Shown one piece after another: positions 1,724-48,357 of a DNA stretch of 64,000 nt. Position 1 is the stretch's first letter. The number at the start of each line of letters is the position of its first letter. Made by a program: the position numbers and the translations under genes. Location: the NCBI GenBank assembly GCA_019429125.1, contig JAHYJO010000001.1, forward strand, positions 90,065 through 154,064, read 5' to 3'. The notes under the pieces are model-generated. The model was not told where the DNA came from, ran no database searches, and saw only the letters and a list, made by a program, of their open reading frames with translations. This stretch comes from Nanobdellati archaeon. Lineage in GTDB: Archaea; EX4484-52; GLR71.

Positions 1724-2664
1724 AAATGATTAAAAATGTAAATATCTTATTTTGGAGTGTATTTATTTCTATGTTTATTTTTTATCCGTCATTTTCATTT
1801 GCTCATGAATCTGATGTTTTTGAGTCATATTCTATTTTTGTGGATGTAGGTCCTAATTTAATAAAATATAGTTATGACTTTGTATTGGTTTTGGAGGGGG
1901 GTAAACATGTCTATGATTTTGTTTTTGCGCCAGATTCAAAAGATGTGCGTGTGTTGTTAAATAATGTGCCTGTTGATTGTAGTAGTTCTTTTGAGGTAGG
2001 TAAGACTATTGTCTTATGTGATATGTCTAATGCGCTTTCTGGAAAAAATTATGTGTCTGCAGAATATATAAGTTCTTATTCATTGTTTGATTTTGAAAAT
2101 ATGAAGATGTTTAAGGATTCTTTTGATATTGGTGGTAATGCTATTTATTTTAAGTTATCAGTAAAACTTCCGTTAGGGTATATCCTTCCTGCTCGGTCGG
2201 ATTATTTTGTGACTCCAACACCTGACATTATTTATTCTGATGGACGGCGACATATAATTTCATGGGATTATAATAATGTCTCATCATTTGATGTTTCAGT
2301 TATTTTTGAACCATCATCTGGTATTGATAGTGGTGTGTCTTATGTATCTTTATTGTTTTATTTATTGTTTGGATTTTTAGTTGTGCGTTATTTCATATAT
2401 TATCGTGTCAATCGAAAAAAAACTGAAATTAAGGAAATTGTATATTCGCATCTTCTTGAAAGTGAGAGTGCAGTTGTGGATGCGCTTCAAGCTAATATGG
2501 GTGTTCTTAAACAGAAAGAGTTGCAGGATATAACTAGCTTTTCAAAGGCAAAATTGAGTAGGGTTATTACTAATCTTGAATCTCGTGGTATTGTTAAAAA
2601 GAAACCTTTCGGTAACAGTAACAAGATATTTTTGATTGTTGCTGATAAAGTCAAAAAGCAATAA
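1720..2664 (+). CDS. Membrane-anchored winged-helix regulator (paralogue 1)
   Basis: The protein has an N-terminal signal peptide or anchor (LFWSVFISMFIFYPSFSFA), an extracytoplasmic domain of about 185 residues, one membrane helix near residues 207-227 (YVSLLFYLLFGFLVVRYFIYY), and a cytoplasmic C-terminal winged helix-turn-helix (LQDITSFSKAKLSRVITNLE). This layout suggests a one-component sensor that binds DNA from the membrane, but no ligand can be inferred. The ATG overlaps the stop of the radical-SAM gene by four bases, so translation may be coupled. The gene at 4934 has the same architecture and a near-identical recognition helix (FSKAKMSRMMLDLE), so the two are paralogues. Which promoters they control is unknown. 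Confidence 0.75.
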   Translation: MKMIKNVNILFWSVFISMFIFYPSFSFAHESDVFESYSIFVDVGPNLIKYSYDFVLVLEGGKHVYDFVFAPDSKDVRVLLNNVPVDCSSSFEVGKTIVLCDMSNALSGKNYVSAEYISSYSLFDFENMKMFKDSFDIGGNAIYFKLSVKLPLGYILPARSDYFVTPTPDIIYSDGRRHIISWDYNNVSSFDVSVIFEPSSGIDSGVSYVSLLFYLLFGFLVVRYFIYYRVNRKKTEIKEIVYSHLLESESAVVDALQANMGVLKQKELQDITSFSKAKLSRVITNLESRGIVKKKPFGNSNKIFLIVADKVKKQ

Positions 2665-2800
2665 AGTATGCAATAGGGGTTATTGTTTCATCTTGTTCCA
2701 CATTGTTTCAAGGAATGTTTATATAGGAGTATTATTGATTAGTTCTATGGATTGCTATTAGGTTGGCAATATTTTGTATATTTAAAAATGGTGAAATGAT

Positions 2801-4114
2801 ATGAAACGACAAAATTTAATGAAATTGTTTGCGCTTCTTGTCGCAGCTATGTATATGGTAGTTCCTGCAGCTTTTGCAGAGGATGCAGTAACTATGTTAA
2901 CTAATACTGCTATAAATACTGCTGTTGGTGATGATGTCGCTGATCTTAATGACATTGCTGTACAAAGTGACGAAGAGGATTCAGCAGAGGCTGGTGTAAC
3001 TCCTGATTCTCCGTTATACAGGTTGGATGTTGCGATGGATAATATTGGTCTTATGTTTACATTCAATAAGGCAAAGAAAGCTGAGAAGAAGCTTGAGATT
3101 GCTAAGGAAAGGCTTAAGGAAGCAAAGATGATGGCTATTGCTAATAATTTGGATGCTATGGAAAAAGCAAAAAATCGTCATGATGCGATGCTTCTTTCGG
3201 CTGAAGAAGATATTGAAGCAATTAATGGTAATGAGACTAAAGCATTGATGAGCAATATTAGAATTAAGTCTATGTTAAAATTACATAATCAGGAAGTTGC
3301 TGATGTTGAACAGGAACTTACATTGAGAGTTCGTGGAAATCTTAAGGATAAACAGCAAGAAAAACTTGATTCATTTATTGAAAGTATGAAAGGCAGTTCT
3401 AAGTCTATTGAAGTAAAAGTTCAGAATAAGGAAGAAAAGATGAAAGCAGTGGTTAAGAGGACACGTAATCTGTCTGATGATGATGTTGATGCTGAATTTG
3501 AGAAGATTAATCGTGAAACCTTACGGGAACATATGAGTGTTAAGGCTCTTGATGTTATAGGTCAGGCTGAAGATGCAATTGGTCGTGCAGAAGATTTGAT
3601 TGAAAAAAAATCTGAAGCAGGTAAGGATGTGACTTATTCAATTGAGCAACTTGACGAAGCTAAAATTATTCTTTTAAAAGCAAAAGAATCTCTTGATAAT
3701 GATGATGTTGAGGATTCTATTGAACAGGCTTTTAAGGCTAAAAGGATGGCTGTATATGCTGCAAGCGGGTTTTCTGTTGAGAAACTTATGAATACGCCTA
3801 TGAAAGATAATGTGGAATTTAATGAAATGAAAGAACAGATTCGTGAAAATATGGAAGAACGAGTACAAGTTCGTGAAAATATTCGTGAGCCGAAAGAAGA
3901 AATGATGCGGAATCGTGAAAATATTCGTGAGCCAATGAAAGATAATAAGGGTGACAAAGATGTTGATTCTGATGATGACTTTGATGATGACTCTGATGAT
4001 GAGAATAGTAATAATTCATCTAATATATCTTTGAATGCATCTGTGTCAGGTACAGATAATAGTATGTCTGGTTCTGTGTCTGGTAATATCGGCAGTAAAA
4101 ATTCCGGCCAATAA
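2801..4114 (+). CDS. Secreted DUF5667-domain protein
   Basis: A 26-residue signal peptide ending in AFA precedes a region matching the DUF5667 pattern: TPDSPLYRLDVAMDNI, then LMFTFNKAKKAEKKLEIAKERL. DUF5667 proteins are exported, largely helical archaeal proteins of unknown function. The middle of the protein is charged and probably coiled coil. The tail has a duplicated stretch (NREN/IREP, encoded by a 21-bp direct repeat at 3871-3891 and 3913-3933), a poly-Asp run, then a Ser/Asn/Gly-rich end (NNSSNISLNASVSG), typical of a flexible, possibly glycosylated surface tail. GGTGA lies shortly before ATG 2801, and a TATA-like TTTATATAGG sits near 2715. A second DUF5667 protein is at 53077. It lies between the two paralogous membrane regulators. 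Confidence 0.75.
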   Translation: MKRQNLMKLFALLVAAMYMVVPAAFAEDAVTMLTNTAINTAVGDDVADLNDIAVQSDEEDSAEAGVTPDSPLYRLDVAMDNIGLMFTFNKAKKAEKKLEIAKERLKEAKMMAIANNLDAMEKAKNRHDAMLLSAEEDIEAINGNETKALMSNIRIKSMLKLHNQEVADVEQELTLRVRGNLKDKQQEKLDSFIESMKGSSKSIEVKVQNKEEKMKAVVKRTRNLSDDDVDAEFEKINRETLREHMSVKALDVIGQAEDAIGRAEDLIEKKSEAGKDVTYSIEQLDEAKIILLKAKESLDNDDVEDSIEQAFKAKRMAVYAASGFSVEKLMNTPMKDNVEFNEMKEQIRENMEERVQVRENIREPKEEMMRNRENIREPMKDNKGDKDVDSDDDFDDDSDDENSNNSSNISLNASVSGTDNSMSGSVSGNIGSKNSGQ

Positions 4115-4164
4115 TAAATTTTAATTTAAAGGGGTTTTTATAACTCTCCTTTTTTTCTTTTTTC

Positions 4165-4332
4165 GGCACTGTTCAAAAAGTGAGTTATTTTTAATATTTT
4201 TAAAATATTGTTTGTTTATAAACTCCGGCAGAAATCCATTTAATATACACATTTTACGTAGAATTACAAAATAAATGAAGGTATTTAATTAACTACATTT
4301 TGTTTGAAATCACTCAAAAAATGAACTGTGCC
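4165..4332 (+). mobile_element. 168-bp MITE, copy 1
   Basis: This non-coding element has imperfect terminal inverted repeats of about 26 bp: left end GGCACTGTTCAAAAAGTGAG, right end (reverse complement) GGCACAGTTCATTTTTTGAG. It is flanked by a perfect 8-bp direct repeat, CTTTTTTC at 4157-4164 and again at 4333-4340, which is the signature of a target-site duplication. The same sequence recurs at 19921-20088 and, inverted, at 42957-43125. The GGCACTGTT end and 8-bp duplication resemble IS6-family elements, so a transposase acting in trans is plausible, but none is in the window. Confidence 0.9.
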
Positions 4333-4483
4333 CTTTTTTCAAAAGATATATAAACTTGTATTGCTATTATTATGTGTGGAACGGTTTTATTTAAACGTTT
4401 CATCGGTTATTTTATTGTTCAATAAGGTCATTTTGACTTTTTTTTCGATTTATGTTTTTAATTGATAATTATAGGTGATTTAA

Positions 4484-11182: not shown

Positions 11183-11258
11183 GAAAGTTAGTTGGTTTTT
11201 TAGTGATTGGTGTTGTAGTAATTAATTATATTATACTTTTGTATATTTTATTTTTCCA

Positions 11259-11304
11259 ATATGTCTGCATATAATTTAATGATTACTTTTTGTGATGTGT
11301 CTAT
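11259..11304 (-). repeat. Degenerate copy of the promoter/operator repeat
   Basis: The sequence CTGCATATAATTTAATGATTAC, then TTTTTGTGATGTGT, aligns with the exact 58-bp repeats at 11652 and 12904 with roughly 70% identity by eye. No intact gene lies downstream of it on the minus strand. Confidence 0.5.
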
Positions 11305-11645
11305 GATGTTTTTTCAATAACTTCCCAATGTCCACCTTTATCAGGACCTATGCGTTTAAGCCGACCTTTTTCTTTTAGCTTCTTGATGTTTTCTTTTATC
11401 TTTCTTTGAGAAATATCCATCAATTCAGATAATTCATTTGCTGAAATACCAGCATCTTTAAGTATAAATTTTATAATATTCTTTTGATTTTTGGTTAATT
11501 TTTCTCCGACCTTTTCAGTGACCTTTTCTCCGACCTTACCATTCAATATTGAAAGATTTTTTCGTTTAAAAACAGCCACAAACGTACCAAATACATCTTT
11601 AAATTCAGTTTCGGGCTCTTTGAATGTTTTTGTTTCTAAATACAT
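11301..11645 (-). pseudogene. C-terminal fragment of an AlbA_2-family regulator
   Basis: The 114-residue product corresponds to the end of AlbA_2/Schlafen-like transcription regulators. It begins in the middle of the usual protein (ETKTFKEPETEFKDVFGTF), has the repeated VGEKVTEKVGEKLTKNQK linker, and ends in a winged helix (ISANELSELMDISQRKIKEN) with RIGPDKGGHWEVI. The ATP-binding-like N-terminal half is missing. The ORF starts seven bases from an exact copy of the 58-bp promoter repeat, so it may still be transcribed, possibly leaderless, as a stand-alone DNA-binding domain. I class it as a remnant, but a functional small regulator is possible. Confidence 0.65.
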
Positions 11646-11651
11646 AATTGG

Positions 11652-11709
11652 GTTTGTTCAACTTGCCTGTATATAATTTAGTGACCACTTTTGGTGGTGT
11701 ATTTAGGGA
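11652..11709 (-). repeat. 58-bp direct repeat, copy A (promoter/operator-like)
   Basis: This copy is identical over 58 bp to 12904-12961 in the same orientation. It contains the inverted repeat ACCAC-TTTTG-GTGGT next to a minus-strand TATA-like element (AATTATATACAGG). On the minus strand the TATA sits about 27-30 bp before ATG 11645. The two copies bracket the HEPN/MNT pair. Confidence 0.85.
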
Positions 11710-11737
11710 GTTTTACTTAGTTATGTATTTTTTGAGA

Positions 11738-12253
11738 CTAAATTTTGCTATTAATTATTTCTTTGACTTTTGATACAAACATTACTGTATTGATTCTTAA
11801 TTGTTCTATCTCATCATTATCAAATAGTATGTTTGCGGAATATGATGCAAGTTCTCGTTTGTTTTTTGAGTCTACATAGAATAAGATGTCTTTATAATTA
11901 AGAAAAAGTGAGATTAATTCTATATCGTTTCTTGTTAATTCTTTACTGTAAAATTCTTTAATTAGGATACAGAGTGTTGCAAGGTGACTTTTTGAAGAAT
12001 AGCCTTTACTTAATATTAATGCCAATGCAGCATGGTAACAGGCATAATAACATCCGGTTATTGCCCAGTCTGGATAATTCAACTGTATTGCATCTTTTAT
12101 GAAATTGAGATTATGTTTGGCTTTTTGGAAATGACCTTTTATTTCTCCTTTTGATGATTCTTTTTTAATTATTTTTTTATGTATAAAATTTTCTATTCTT
12201 TTTTCAACTAAATGTGGATTATTAAGCATATTATTTAATTCGTAGATATTCAT
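11738..12253 (-). CDS. HEPN-domain protein (toxin-like partner)
   Basis: This 171-residue helical protein has the HEPN core (HFQKAKHNLNFIKDAIQLN, then DWAITGCYYACYHAALALIL and KSHLATLC). HEPN proteins paired with minimal nucleotidyltransferases act as RNase toxins or as regulators held in check by the partner. The RX4-6H catalytic motif is not obvious here, so RNase activity is uncertain. The gene starts inside the end of the MNT gene (23-bp overlap, 12231-12253), so the pair is cotranscribed and probably translationally coupled. The pair lies between two identical 58-bp direct repeats in a patch of decayed genes, which suggests acquisition as a unit. Confidence 0.75.
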   Translation of the reverse strand: MNIYELNNMLNNPHLVEKRIENFIHKKIIKKESSKGEIKGHFQKAKHNLNFIKDAIQLNYPDWAITGCYYACYHAALALILSKGYSSKSHLATLCILIKEFYSKELTRNDIELISLFLNYKDILFYVDSKNKRELASYSANILFDNDEIEQLRINTVMFVSKVKEIINSKI

Positions 12254-12845
12254 CGTAAATGCACGTATAATAGTATATATGGTTGGTTAACGGATAACCT
12301 GTCTCAATTGCAGATTGAATGACTGGTTCTTCTTTAATTTTAATTTCTTTTTTGAATTTTGGAAGTGTGATCTGAAAATCATTTATTTTCATAGATGTTT
12401 GTGTCTCAACATAGTTTTTTGCATTTGTTGTATCTATTTTTTTATTTGATATGAGCAAAATATCTATATCGGATTCTTTTGTATAATTATTTTTTGCAGT
12501 TGATCCGAAAAGGAACATGATTATCGGTTTTTCGTCTAAGGTGTCTATAAATATGTTAATTGCGTCTTTTCTGAGAGTATTTAATTGTTGCATTTTTTCT
12601 GTGTCAAAACAGGTAAATAATGCATATGTCTCTTTTGTTTTTTTTATTTTGTATCTTTTCATATTCCCTTCTTTTTCAGAACTTAAGATTCTTGAGAGTT
12701 CAAGTTTATTTAGGAATCTGTATGCACTGTTTTCATTAAGTTCTGTTTTTCTGGCAAGTTCTCTAAGGTGAATACATTGATTCTTATTTTCATAGAAGAA
12801 TCTAAGGATTCTTTCAATTCCCGGAGTTATAATATTGTTTAACAT
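12231..12845 (-). CDS. Winged-helix plus MNT nucleotidyltransferase (antitoxin-like)
   Basis: Residues 1-75 form a winged helix-turn-helix (CIHLRELARKTELNENSAYRFLNKLE). Residues 105-135 hold the minimal nucleotidyltransferase signature FGS-x10-D-x-D (G114, S115, D126, D128: LFGSTAKNNYTKESDIDILL). In HEPN/MNT systems the MNT enzyme is the antitoxin, and some members AMPylate the HEPN protein. Here the fused DNA-binding domain could also give autoregulation at the palindrome in the upstream 58-bp repeat. It is first in a two-gene unit with the HEPN gene. The nucleotidyltransferase residues look intact. Confidence 0.8.
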   Translation of the reverse strand: MLNNIITPGIERILRFFYENKNQCIHLRELARKTELNENSAYRFLNKLELSRILSSEKEGNMKRYKIKKTKETYALFTCFDTEKMQQLNTLRKDAINIFIDTLDEKPIIMFLFGSTAKNNYTKESDIDILLISNKKIDTTNAKNYVETQTSMKINDFQITLPKFKKEIKIKEEPVIQSAIETGYPLTNHIYYYTCIYDEYLRIK

Positions 12846-12903
12846 ATTTCAACAATTGTTTAATTGTTTTAAACAGTTATATGTTTGTTGGTTATATCAA
12901 TAT

Positions 12904-12961
12904 GTTTGTTCAACTTGCCTGTATATAATTTAGTGACCACTTTTGGTGGTGTATTTAGGGA
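12904..12961 (-). repeat. 58-bp direct repeat, copy B (promoter/operator-like)
   Basis: Identical to 11652-11709. On the minus strand the TATA-like element predicts a transcript start near 12900, about 55 bases before the MNT start codon. The ACCAC-N5-GTGGT palindrome lies just upstream of the TATA, where a bound protein could control it. Confidence 0.85.
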
Positions 12962-19920: not shown

Positions 19921-20088
19921 TGCACTGTTCAAAAAGGGAGTGATTTTAAATATTTTTTAAATATTGTTTGTTTATAAACTCTGGCAGAAAACCCTTTAAT
20001 ATATACATTTCACGCAGAATTAAAAAAGAAATGAAGGTATTTAATTAACTACATTTTGTTTGAAATCACTCAAAAAATGAACTGTGCC
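19921..20088 (+). mobile_element. 168-bp MITE, copy 2
   Basis: This copy has the same length and orientation as copy 1 and is highly similar to it, with first base T instead of G (TGCACTGTTCAAAAAGGGAG) and right end GAACTGTGCC. No matching 8-bp flanks exist (CTTTATTC to the left, GGTTTTGT to the right), unlike the other two copies. One flank was probably lost together with the 5' half of the beta-propeller gene. Confidence 0.88.
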
Positions 20089-20157: not shown

Positions 20158-20283
20158 TGCAGGGGAGGGGATTCGAACCCCCGAACTCCTACGAGAGTGG
20201 ATCTTGAGTCCACCGCCTCTTGCCGAATGATACCCCTTAATACATTTAAGGTATGTTCTTTGACCAGGCTGGGCGACCCCTGC
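20158..20283 (-). tRNA. tRNA-Leu (anticodon CAA) with about 40-nt insertion in the D-arm
   Basis: On the minus strand the gene starts GCAGGGGTCGCCCAGCCTGG and ends with variable arm, TTCGAAT T-loop and CCCCTGCA. The anticodon stem-loop GTGGA-CTCAAGA-TCCAC gives CAA. Removing about 40 nt (20218-20257; AACATACC to GGCAAGA) restores a normal 86-nt class II tRNA with D-stem GCCC/GGGC. The insert contains its own hairpin (ACCTTAA/TTAAGGGGT). The exact splice points are ambiguous by a few bases and I find no canonical bulge-helix-bulge. There is no second insertion at the usual 37/38 site. Confidence 0.85.
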
Positions 20284-32956: not shown

Positions 32957-33083
32957 TGGGCTCGAAGGGGTTTGAACCCTCGACTTCCGGCTCTCCAAGA
33001 CCAATACTTAGGAAAGCAAGTTCCGAATTTATGAAACGTGGCCATATAAGACCGGCGCTCCAACCAGACTGAGCTACGAGCCC
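32957..33083 (-). tRNA. tRNA-Ile (anticodon UAU) with 52-nt intron at 37/38
   Basis: On the minus strand, exon 1 (33083-33045) ends CGCCGGTCTTATA and exon 2 (32992-32957) begins AGCCGGAAGTC. Removing 32993-33044 gives a 75-nt tRNA with acceptor GGGCTCG/CGAGCCC, D-stem GCTC/GAGC, anticodon stem CCGGT/GCCGG, loop CTTATAA and a TTCAAAC T-loop. The precursor shows bulge-helix-bulge geometry: stem CCGGT/GCCGG, 4+3 bases on each side, then intron stem GGCCA/TGGTC. The anticodon is TAT (isoleucine, AUA). Archaea usually read AUA with a modified CAU anticodon instead. Confidence 0.82.
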
Positions 33084-42843: not shown

Positions 42844-42956
42844 GAGTTAGCATCTTTTCTTTTTTTTATTTCATTTTTTAGTTTTTTAGTTCTGATTGAT
42901 TTTAAAAATAGTTTAATCTTTTTGTATTTATTGTTATTAGGGGGAAGATGATAACC

Positions 42957-43125
42957 GGCACTGTTCATTTTTCGAGTGATTTCAAACAGAATGTAGTTAA
43001 ATTAAAGACCTTTATTTCTTTTGTAATTCAACGTGAAATGTGTATATTAAATGGATCTCTGCAGGTGTTTATAAACAAACAATATCTAAAAAATATTCAA
43101 AATCACTCACTTTTTGAACAGTGCC
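42957..43125 (-). mobile_element. 169-bp MITE, copy 3 (inverted)
   Basis: This is the reverse complement of copies 1 and 2: left end GGCACTGTTCATTTTTCGAG, right end GTGATTTT-type (CACTCACTTTTTGAACAGTGCC region). It is flanked by a perfect 8-bp target duplication, TGATAACC at 42949-42956 and 43126-43133. It lies between the thermosome and the pilus locus. The 78-residue ORF track entry across it is not a gene. Confidence 0.92.
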
Positions 43126-43239
43126 TGATAACCATTATCTATATATACTCAGTAATGTCAATATATAAAATAGGTAGTTTTTGAGGTATTAATATTTTTG
43201 TATTAACCTCATTATCAAAGTAATATTGTTGGTGAAATA

Positions 43240-46134: not shown

Positions 46135-46148
<14 letters not shown>
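45711..46148 (+). CDS. Prepilin-like protein
   Basis: The 145-residue protein begins with a basic stretch SRKRKG, then QNLVLEEILFIALSIVVIIG, a prepilin-type helix with the conserved E at about +6. The rest is a small beta-rich domain. Its end overlaps the start of the secretion ATPase by 14 bp, so it is translated from the same message. Probably a minor or priming pilin. Confidence 0.75.

Positions 46149-48337
<2,189 letters not shown>

Positions 48338-48357
<20 letters not shown>

Follow-up and report, generated by a model that had tools for sequence, protein, structure and literature searches.

The analysed window, a 64-kb stretch corresponding to positions 90065-154064 of contig 16 in an archaeal draft genome (1.16 Mb, 93% complete, 32 contigs), contains three copies of a 168-169 bp element, the third of them inverted (Table 1). 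All three lie where an earlier note on this DNA had placed them, and the exact 8-bp target duplications it had described for copies 1 and 3 were both read. Copy 2 begins with a mutated base (TGCACTG vs GGCACTG), diverges by 7.7% from the consensus and has flanks identical at 3 of 8 positions, so that its duplication is absent. In the consensus, the two ends match each other at 23 of the first 30 positions.

Table 1. Copies of the 168-bp MITE and their target duplications in the window, together with copies of a second MITE family from the same genome (positions refer to the window unless preceded by a locus label).
Feature	Position	Strand	Details
MITE copy 1	4165..4332	+	168 bp, ends GGCACTGTTCAAAAAGTGAG / ATGAACTGTGCC
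Copy 1 target duplication, left	4157..4164		8 bp, CTTTTTTC, read directly
Copy 1 target duplication, right	4333..4340		8 bp, CTTTTTTC
MITE copy 2	19921..20088	+	168 bp, no target duplication
MITE copy 3	42957..43125	-	169 bp, inverted
Copy 3 target duplication	42949..42956		8 bp, TGATAACC
Copy 3 target duplication	43126..43133		8 bp, TGATAACC
257-259 bp MITE copy	L012:1822-2080
257-259 bp MITE copy	L013:2079-2335
257-259 bp MITE copy	L021:76-334

Other features were also observed in and around the window. Two tRNA genes on the minus strand, at 20158-20283 (about 70 bp away from MITE copy 2) and 32957-33083, measure 126-127 nt, leaving room for an intron or insertion. Three direct repeats of 69 nt, related to one another at 65-93% identity, are located at 11239-11307, 11641-11709 and 12893-12961, near ORFs at 11301-12845, and an Asn/Asp-rich low-complexity coding repeat occupies 46481-46672 within a 740-aa ORF (46135-48357). 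Archaeal marker genes were recognised on neighbouring stretches, including TFB-like and A-type ATPase ORFs (by eye) and an MtrA domain.

When the whole source genome was queried with the 168-bp element, 37 matching places were obtained (best E 6e-84), 29 of them near full length, bearing out the multicopy family that the earlier note had expected genome-wide. As for the flanking 8-mers, whose listing had been proposed as a check, perfect 8/8 duplications surround 18 of the 29 near-complete copies, at a chance expectation of about 3e-5 per copy, and five more copies have near-perfect ones (two 7/8; three 8/8 once one end is shifted by one base). The duplications are 78% A+T and exhibit no fixed motif. 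Six copies have intact ends and unrelated flanks; copy-to-copy recombination was considered as the source of these missing duplications and rejected, as the six sets of flanks do not match one another. Additionally, a 15-base end pattern with one mismatch allowed was found at 27 genome sites, compared with 0 for the reversed control. Together, the 37 matches, the 27 vs 0 end sites and the 18/29 perfect duplications exclude a chance origin. The 168-bp element is a genuine, non-coding MITE of ordinary kind, shorter than 500 bp, with terminal inverted repeats and target duplications of constant length. The main group of copies diverges by 1.8-7.7% from the consensus and three older copies by 12-25%; the recent activity proposed in the earlier note thus stands as fairly recent, rather than demonstrably current.

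The MITE has in common with a set of transposase-bearing elements its asymmetric 24-bp ends (left GGCACTGTYCAAAAAGTGAGTGAT, right GGCACWGTTCATTTTTTGAGTGAT), and this terminal segment of about 24 bp is the whole of the overlap. Two larger elements of the source genome, L061 and L037, share the left end, which in both runs into the N-terminus of a transposase. In L061 the end starts at 2814 on the minus strand and agrees with the MITE at 24/24 positions allowing T/C; about 90 bp past it, the translation reads MTNIQMCLNNFNGVE...SDDFEFTVK and then KTFLRKKTKICSCGTKMVHNGFNYIRKNG in another frame (tblastn match to the transposase N-terminus, E 1.7e-10). In L037 the end starts at 2206, and the N-terminus (tblastn E 3e-4) is interrupted at about 2389-3932 by a decayed IS1634-type IS. 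Since the latter has its own ends, CCTTAACTCTGC / GCAAAGTTAAGG, separate from the GGCAC ends, it is nested inside the GGCAC element. No tblastn match to the parent transposase was obtained within the window, and no intact parent IS was found in the source genome or in other archaeal drafts. As the source genome is a draft, an intact IS could be missing from the assembly.

A few MITE copies are themselves disrupted. Those in L028, L029 and L096 are broken at the end of an IS66-like element, described below, while the copy in L034 is interrupted by a fragment (1500-1840) of an IS5-like relic present at about 628-1819 of L040. The split copy had suggested an IS5-like transposase as the parent, a candidate rejected because the fragment matches this independent relic, which has other ends.

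The same ends are found in other archaea. Exact or near-exact 24-bp ends were detected in nzgw58, nzgw59, a Candidatus Woesearchaeota MAG (NC_groundwater_566), G263, G272, G315, G347 and G392; many of the elements carrying them there are MITEs, 76-309 bp long and flanked by exact 8-bp duplications. MITEs that combine the same ends with exact 8-bp duplications are present in G006, G061, G063, G263 and G392, and similar MITEs occur in Woesearchaeota-type drafts. G006, of the same genus as the source genome, carries the same MITE. The most complete link to coding DNA comes from L128 in G272, an element of 1401 bp with ends GGCACAATTCAAAAAGTGAGTGAT / GGCACAGTTCACTTTCTGAGTGAT and the 8-bp duplication ATAAGTAA; compared separately, its left end matches the MITE at 22/24 positions and its right end at 21/24. 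It encodes an ORF pair (MTEIQLNFNNLSESEALFSLFPASDKYEFTAKKVFRLKHRVFCSCGTEMVHNGF...) homologous to the source-genome relics and, in alignment with L154, is missing some 70 residues in the region of the second catalytic aspartate. Furthermore, at a contig edge in G404 (L157), a GGCACAGTTCAGAATGTGAGTGATG end lies about 90 bp ahead of the same transposase N-terminus. All of the transposase-bearing elements that share the MITE ends (L061, L037, L128 and L157) have suffered deletion or decay or are truncated at a contig end. The related transposases L152-L154 have no demonstrable GGCAC ends. Neither the ends nor the L128 transposase had a relative among viral contigs and plasmids, and phages gave weak partial matches to the MITE, nothing more.

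Two further observations concern the surroundings of related ends. In two congeners, related GGCAC elements (L042 in G006 and L062 in G000 C25) lie beside the same DNA-ligase-like ORF; their opposite orientation and different distances suggest separate insertions. In G063, GGCACTATCC... ends occur at L119 and L122 just upstream of two related ORFs resembling secreted proteins, and the upstream DNA is repeated, so composite mobile units are possible.

The transposases linked to GGCAC ends, or homologous to them, reach no curated NCBIfam cut-off, and in Pfam a single relative, L152, narrowly exceeds that of ISL3 (24.2 vs 23 bits). Weak but concordant model matches were obtained to IS256 (2.4e-7), ISL3, ISH6, MULE and IS66, in keeping with a DDE core bearing IS256/MULE/ISL3-type motifs. 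In profile comparisons (hhalign), the relatives aligned with a Halococcus ISH6-like transposase at 99.6% probability over 324 columns, and with ISL3 at 96.8% over the N-terminal half and the second D motif; the local IS66 protein reached no more than 32%. The term ISH6-like is used loosely here, because the Halococcus protein itself scores 46/240 bits on the NCBIfam ISH6 model. The enzyme is a zinc-finger DDE transposase of the Mutator superfamily, distantly related to haloarchaeal ISH6-like transposases and to ISL3/IS256.

We consider it likely that the MITE is a non-autonomous element mobilised in trans by a GGCAC-ended IS with this Mutator-like, ISH6-related transposase. The enzyme would come from an autonomous IS that shares the asymmetric 24-bp ends, and would recognise both ends of the MITE; a cut staggered by 8 bp in AT-rich intergenic DNA would then leave an 8-bp duplication flanking each insertion. 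Only decayed remnants of the IS were found in the source genome, and we infer for this reason that the MITE family is probably stranded there, or nearly so.

The best-surviving alternative is that the MITE was moved by another DDE transposase that shares, or has converged on, the same ends. An intact parent was not seen and the common ends are the sole link between MITE and IS, both of which leave it some room; the left and right ends, however, match the IS separately in L128, and the left end matches again in L061, which would demand a strong coincidence. We regard this alternative as unlikely.

Mobilisation by an IS6-family transposase, as the earlier note had proposed, appears very unlikely. 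According to PMC7986276, IS6 elements are characterised by GG tips, cTGTt/caaa motifs and 8-bp duplications, and MITEs derived from IS6, 227 and 336 bp long, are already known. The present MITE resembles the IS6/IS26 family in its GG tips, its CTGTT motif and its 8-bp duplications, but these traits are not unique to IS6. In the source genome the NCBIfam IS6 model, with its cut-off of 125 bits, scores no better than 18.1 bits; this best match is to an IS66-like ORF, and the element carrying that ORF is bounded by other ends (GTAYTTGTTTAGC). Moreover, it is the zinc-finger DDE transposase, not an IS6 transposase, that the identical 24-bp end abuts twice in the source genome, and near-identical ends do likewise in two others. 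In place of IS6, the MITE should be attributed to the ISH6-related, Mutator-like group of GGCAC ISs, no intact autonomous copy of which was seen. An IS1595 origin was also considered and rejected, PF12762 being absent from the source genome.

The IS66-like ORF belongs to an IS of 1421 bp (L060:955-2375, in G000 C32) with ends GTACTTGTTTAGC, also given as GTAYTTGTTTAGC, and the target duplication AAATAATT. A second MITE family, of 257-259 bp, has the ends of this IS and 8-bp duplications (Table 1). This independent pair shows a MITE with a findable parent in the source genome and, as it too generates 8-bp duplications, such duplications alone identify no family.

A host regulatory or structural repeat, in place of a transposon, is hardly credible. 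All copies are intergenic (none lies inside an ORF of at least 120 aa), several have a start codon no more than 80 bp away, and the ends can pair as a hairpin. The exact 8-bp duplications, however, differ between sites, single-strand folding is unexceptional (z -1.6), Rfam gave no match at any of the three window copies, and none of six congeners has more than one related copy. At a limit of 80 bp, fourteen element sides are close to the start of a neighbouring ORF and nine are close to a stop, and no clear promoter preference is therefore shown. When the flanks were joined, an ORF of at least 100 aa spanned the junction at only 4 of the 29 sites. Equally far-fetched is a parent of IS1634 type, first favoured from the IS1634-like ORF between two GGCAC ends in L037 (2206-4074) and then dropped, as intact elements of that type elsewhere among archaeal genomes end in CCTAA/CCGTAA and are flanked by duplications of 5-7 bp, and L061, which has no IS1634, extends the GGCAC element beyond the L037 insertion point.

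Returning to the GGCAC-ended IS as the parent, the MITE ends lead to a transposase group missed by current curated IS-family models, and MITEs related to this one occur in distant, uncultivated archaea. A broader proposal, which we hold to be evenly balanced between right and wrong, is that the GGCAC elements of small-genome archaea make up an IS family not yet described, which has an ISH6-sister zinc-finger Mutator-like transposase, passes from one distant archaeal group to another and persists chiefly in the form of MITEs, these far outnumbering intact copies. These elements offer a handle on mobile-DNA annotation in small-genome archaea, and on the question of whether MITEs can persist as a family after the loss of their transposase.

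Among known IS families, ISL3 elements generate 8-bp duplications and have GGC-type ends. The parent IS shares both traits along with the profile match, whereas its transposase reaches only 23/180 bits on the NCBIfam ISL3 model. ISH6 (p-MULT 2) has been placed among the prokaryotic Mutator-like transposases, with AANATNTT as its reported duplication motif (PMC3942029). The parent IS is like this family in its Mutator-superfamily DDE transposase, mainly archaeal occurrence and AT-rich insertion sites, and like the Halococcus ISH6-like IS in its 8-bp duplication. It differs in scoring 22.8 bits against the cut-off of 240 on the ISH6 model, in the absence of the AANATNTT motif from the MITE duplications (0/18, either strand) and in its ends, which begin GGCAC where those of the Halococcus IS begin GGTCCTACC.

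The MITE itself is a known kind of genomic parasite. Like the prokaryotic MITEs reviewed in PMC10969869 and the haloarchaeal examples in PMC3119063, it is shorter than 500 bp, AT-rich, intergenic and bounded by terminal inverted repeats and target duplications, with only its ends common to a probable parent transposon; as reported for HqIRS39 of Haloquadratum, a functional transposase is missing locally. It differs from them in its small-genome archaeal host and in a probable parent that is not a named IS family, and this parent group looks undescribed.
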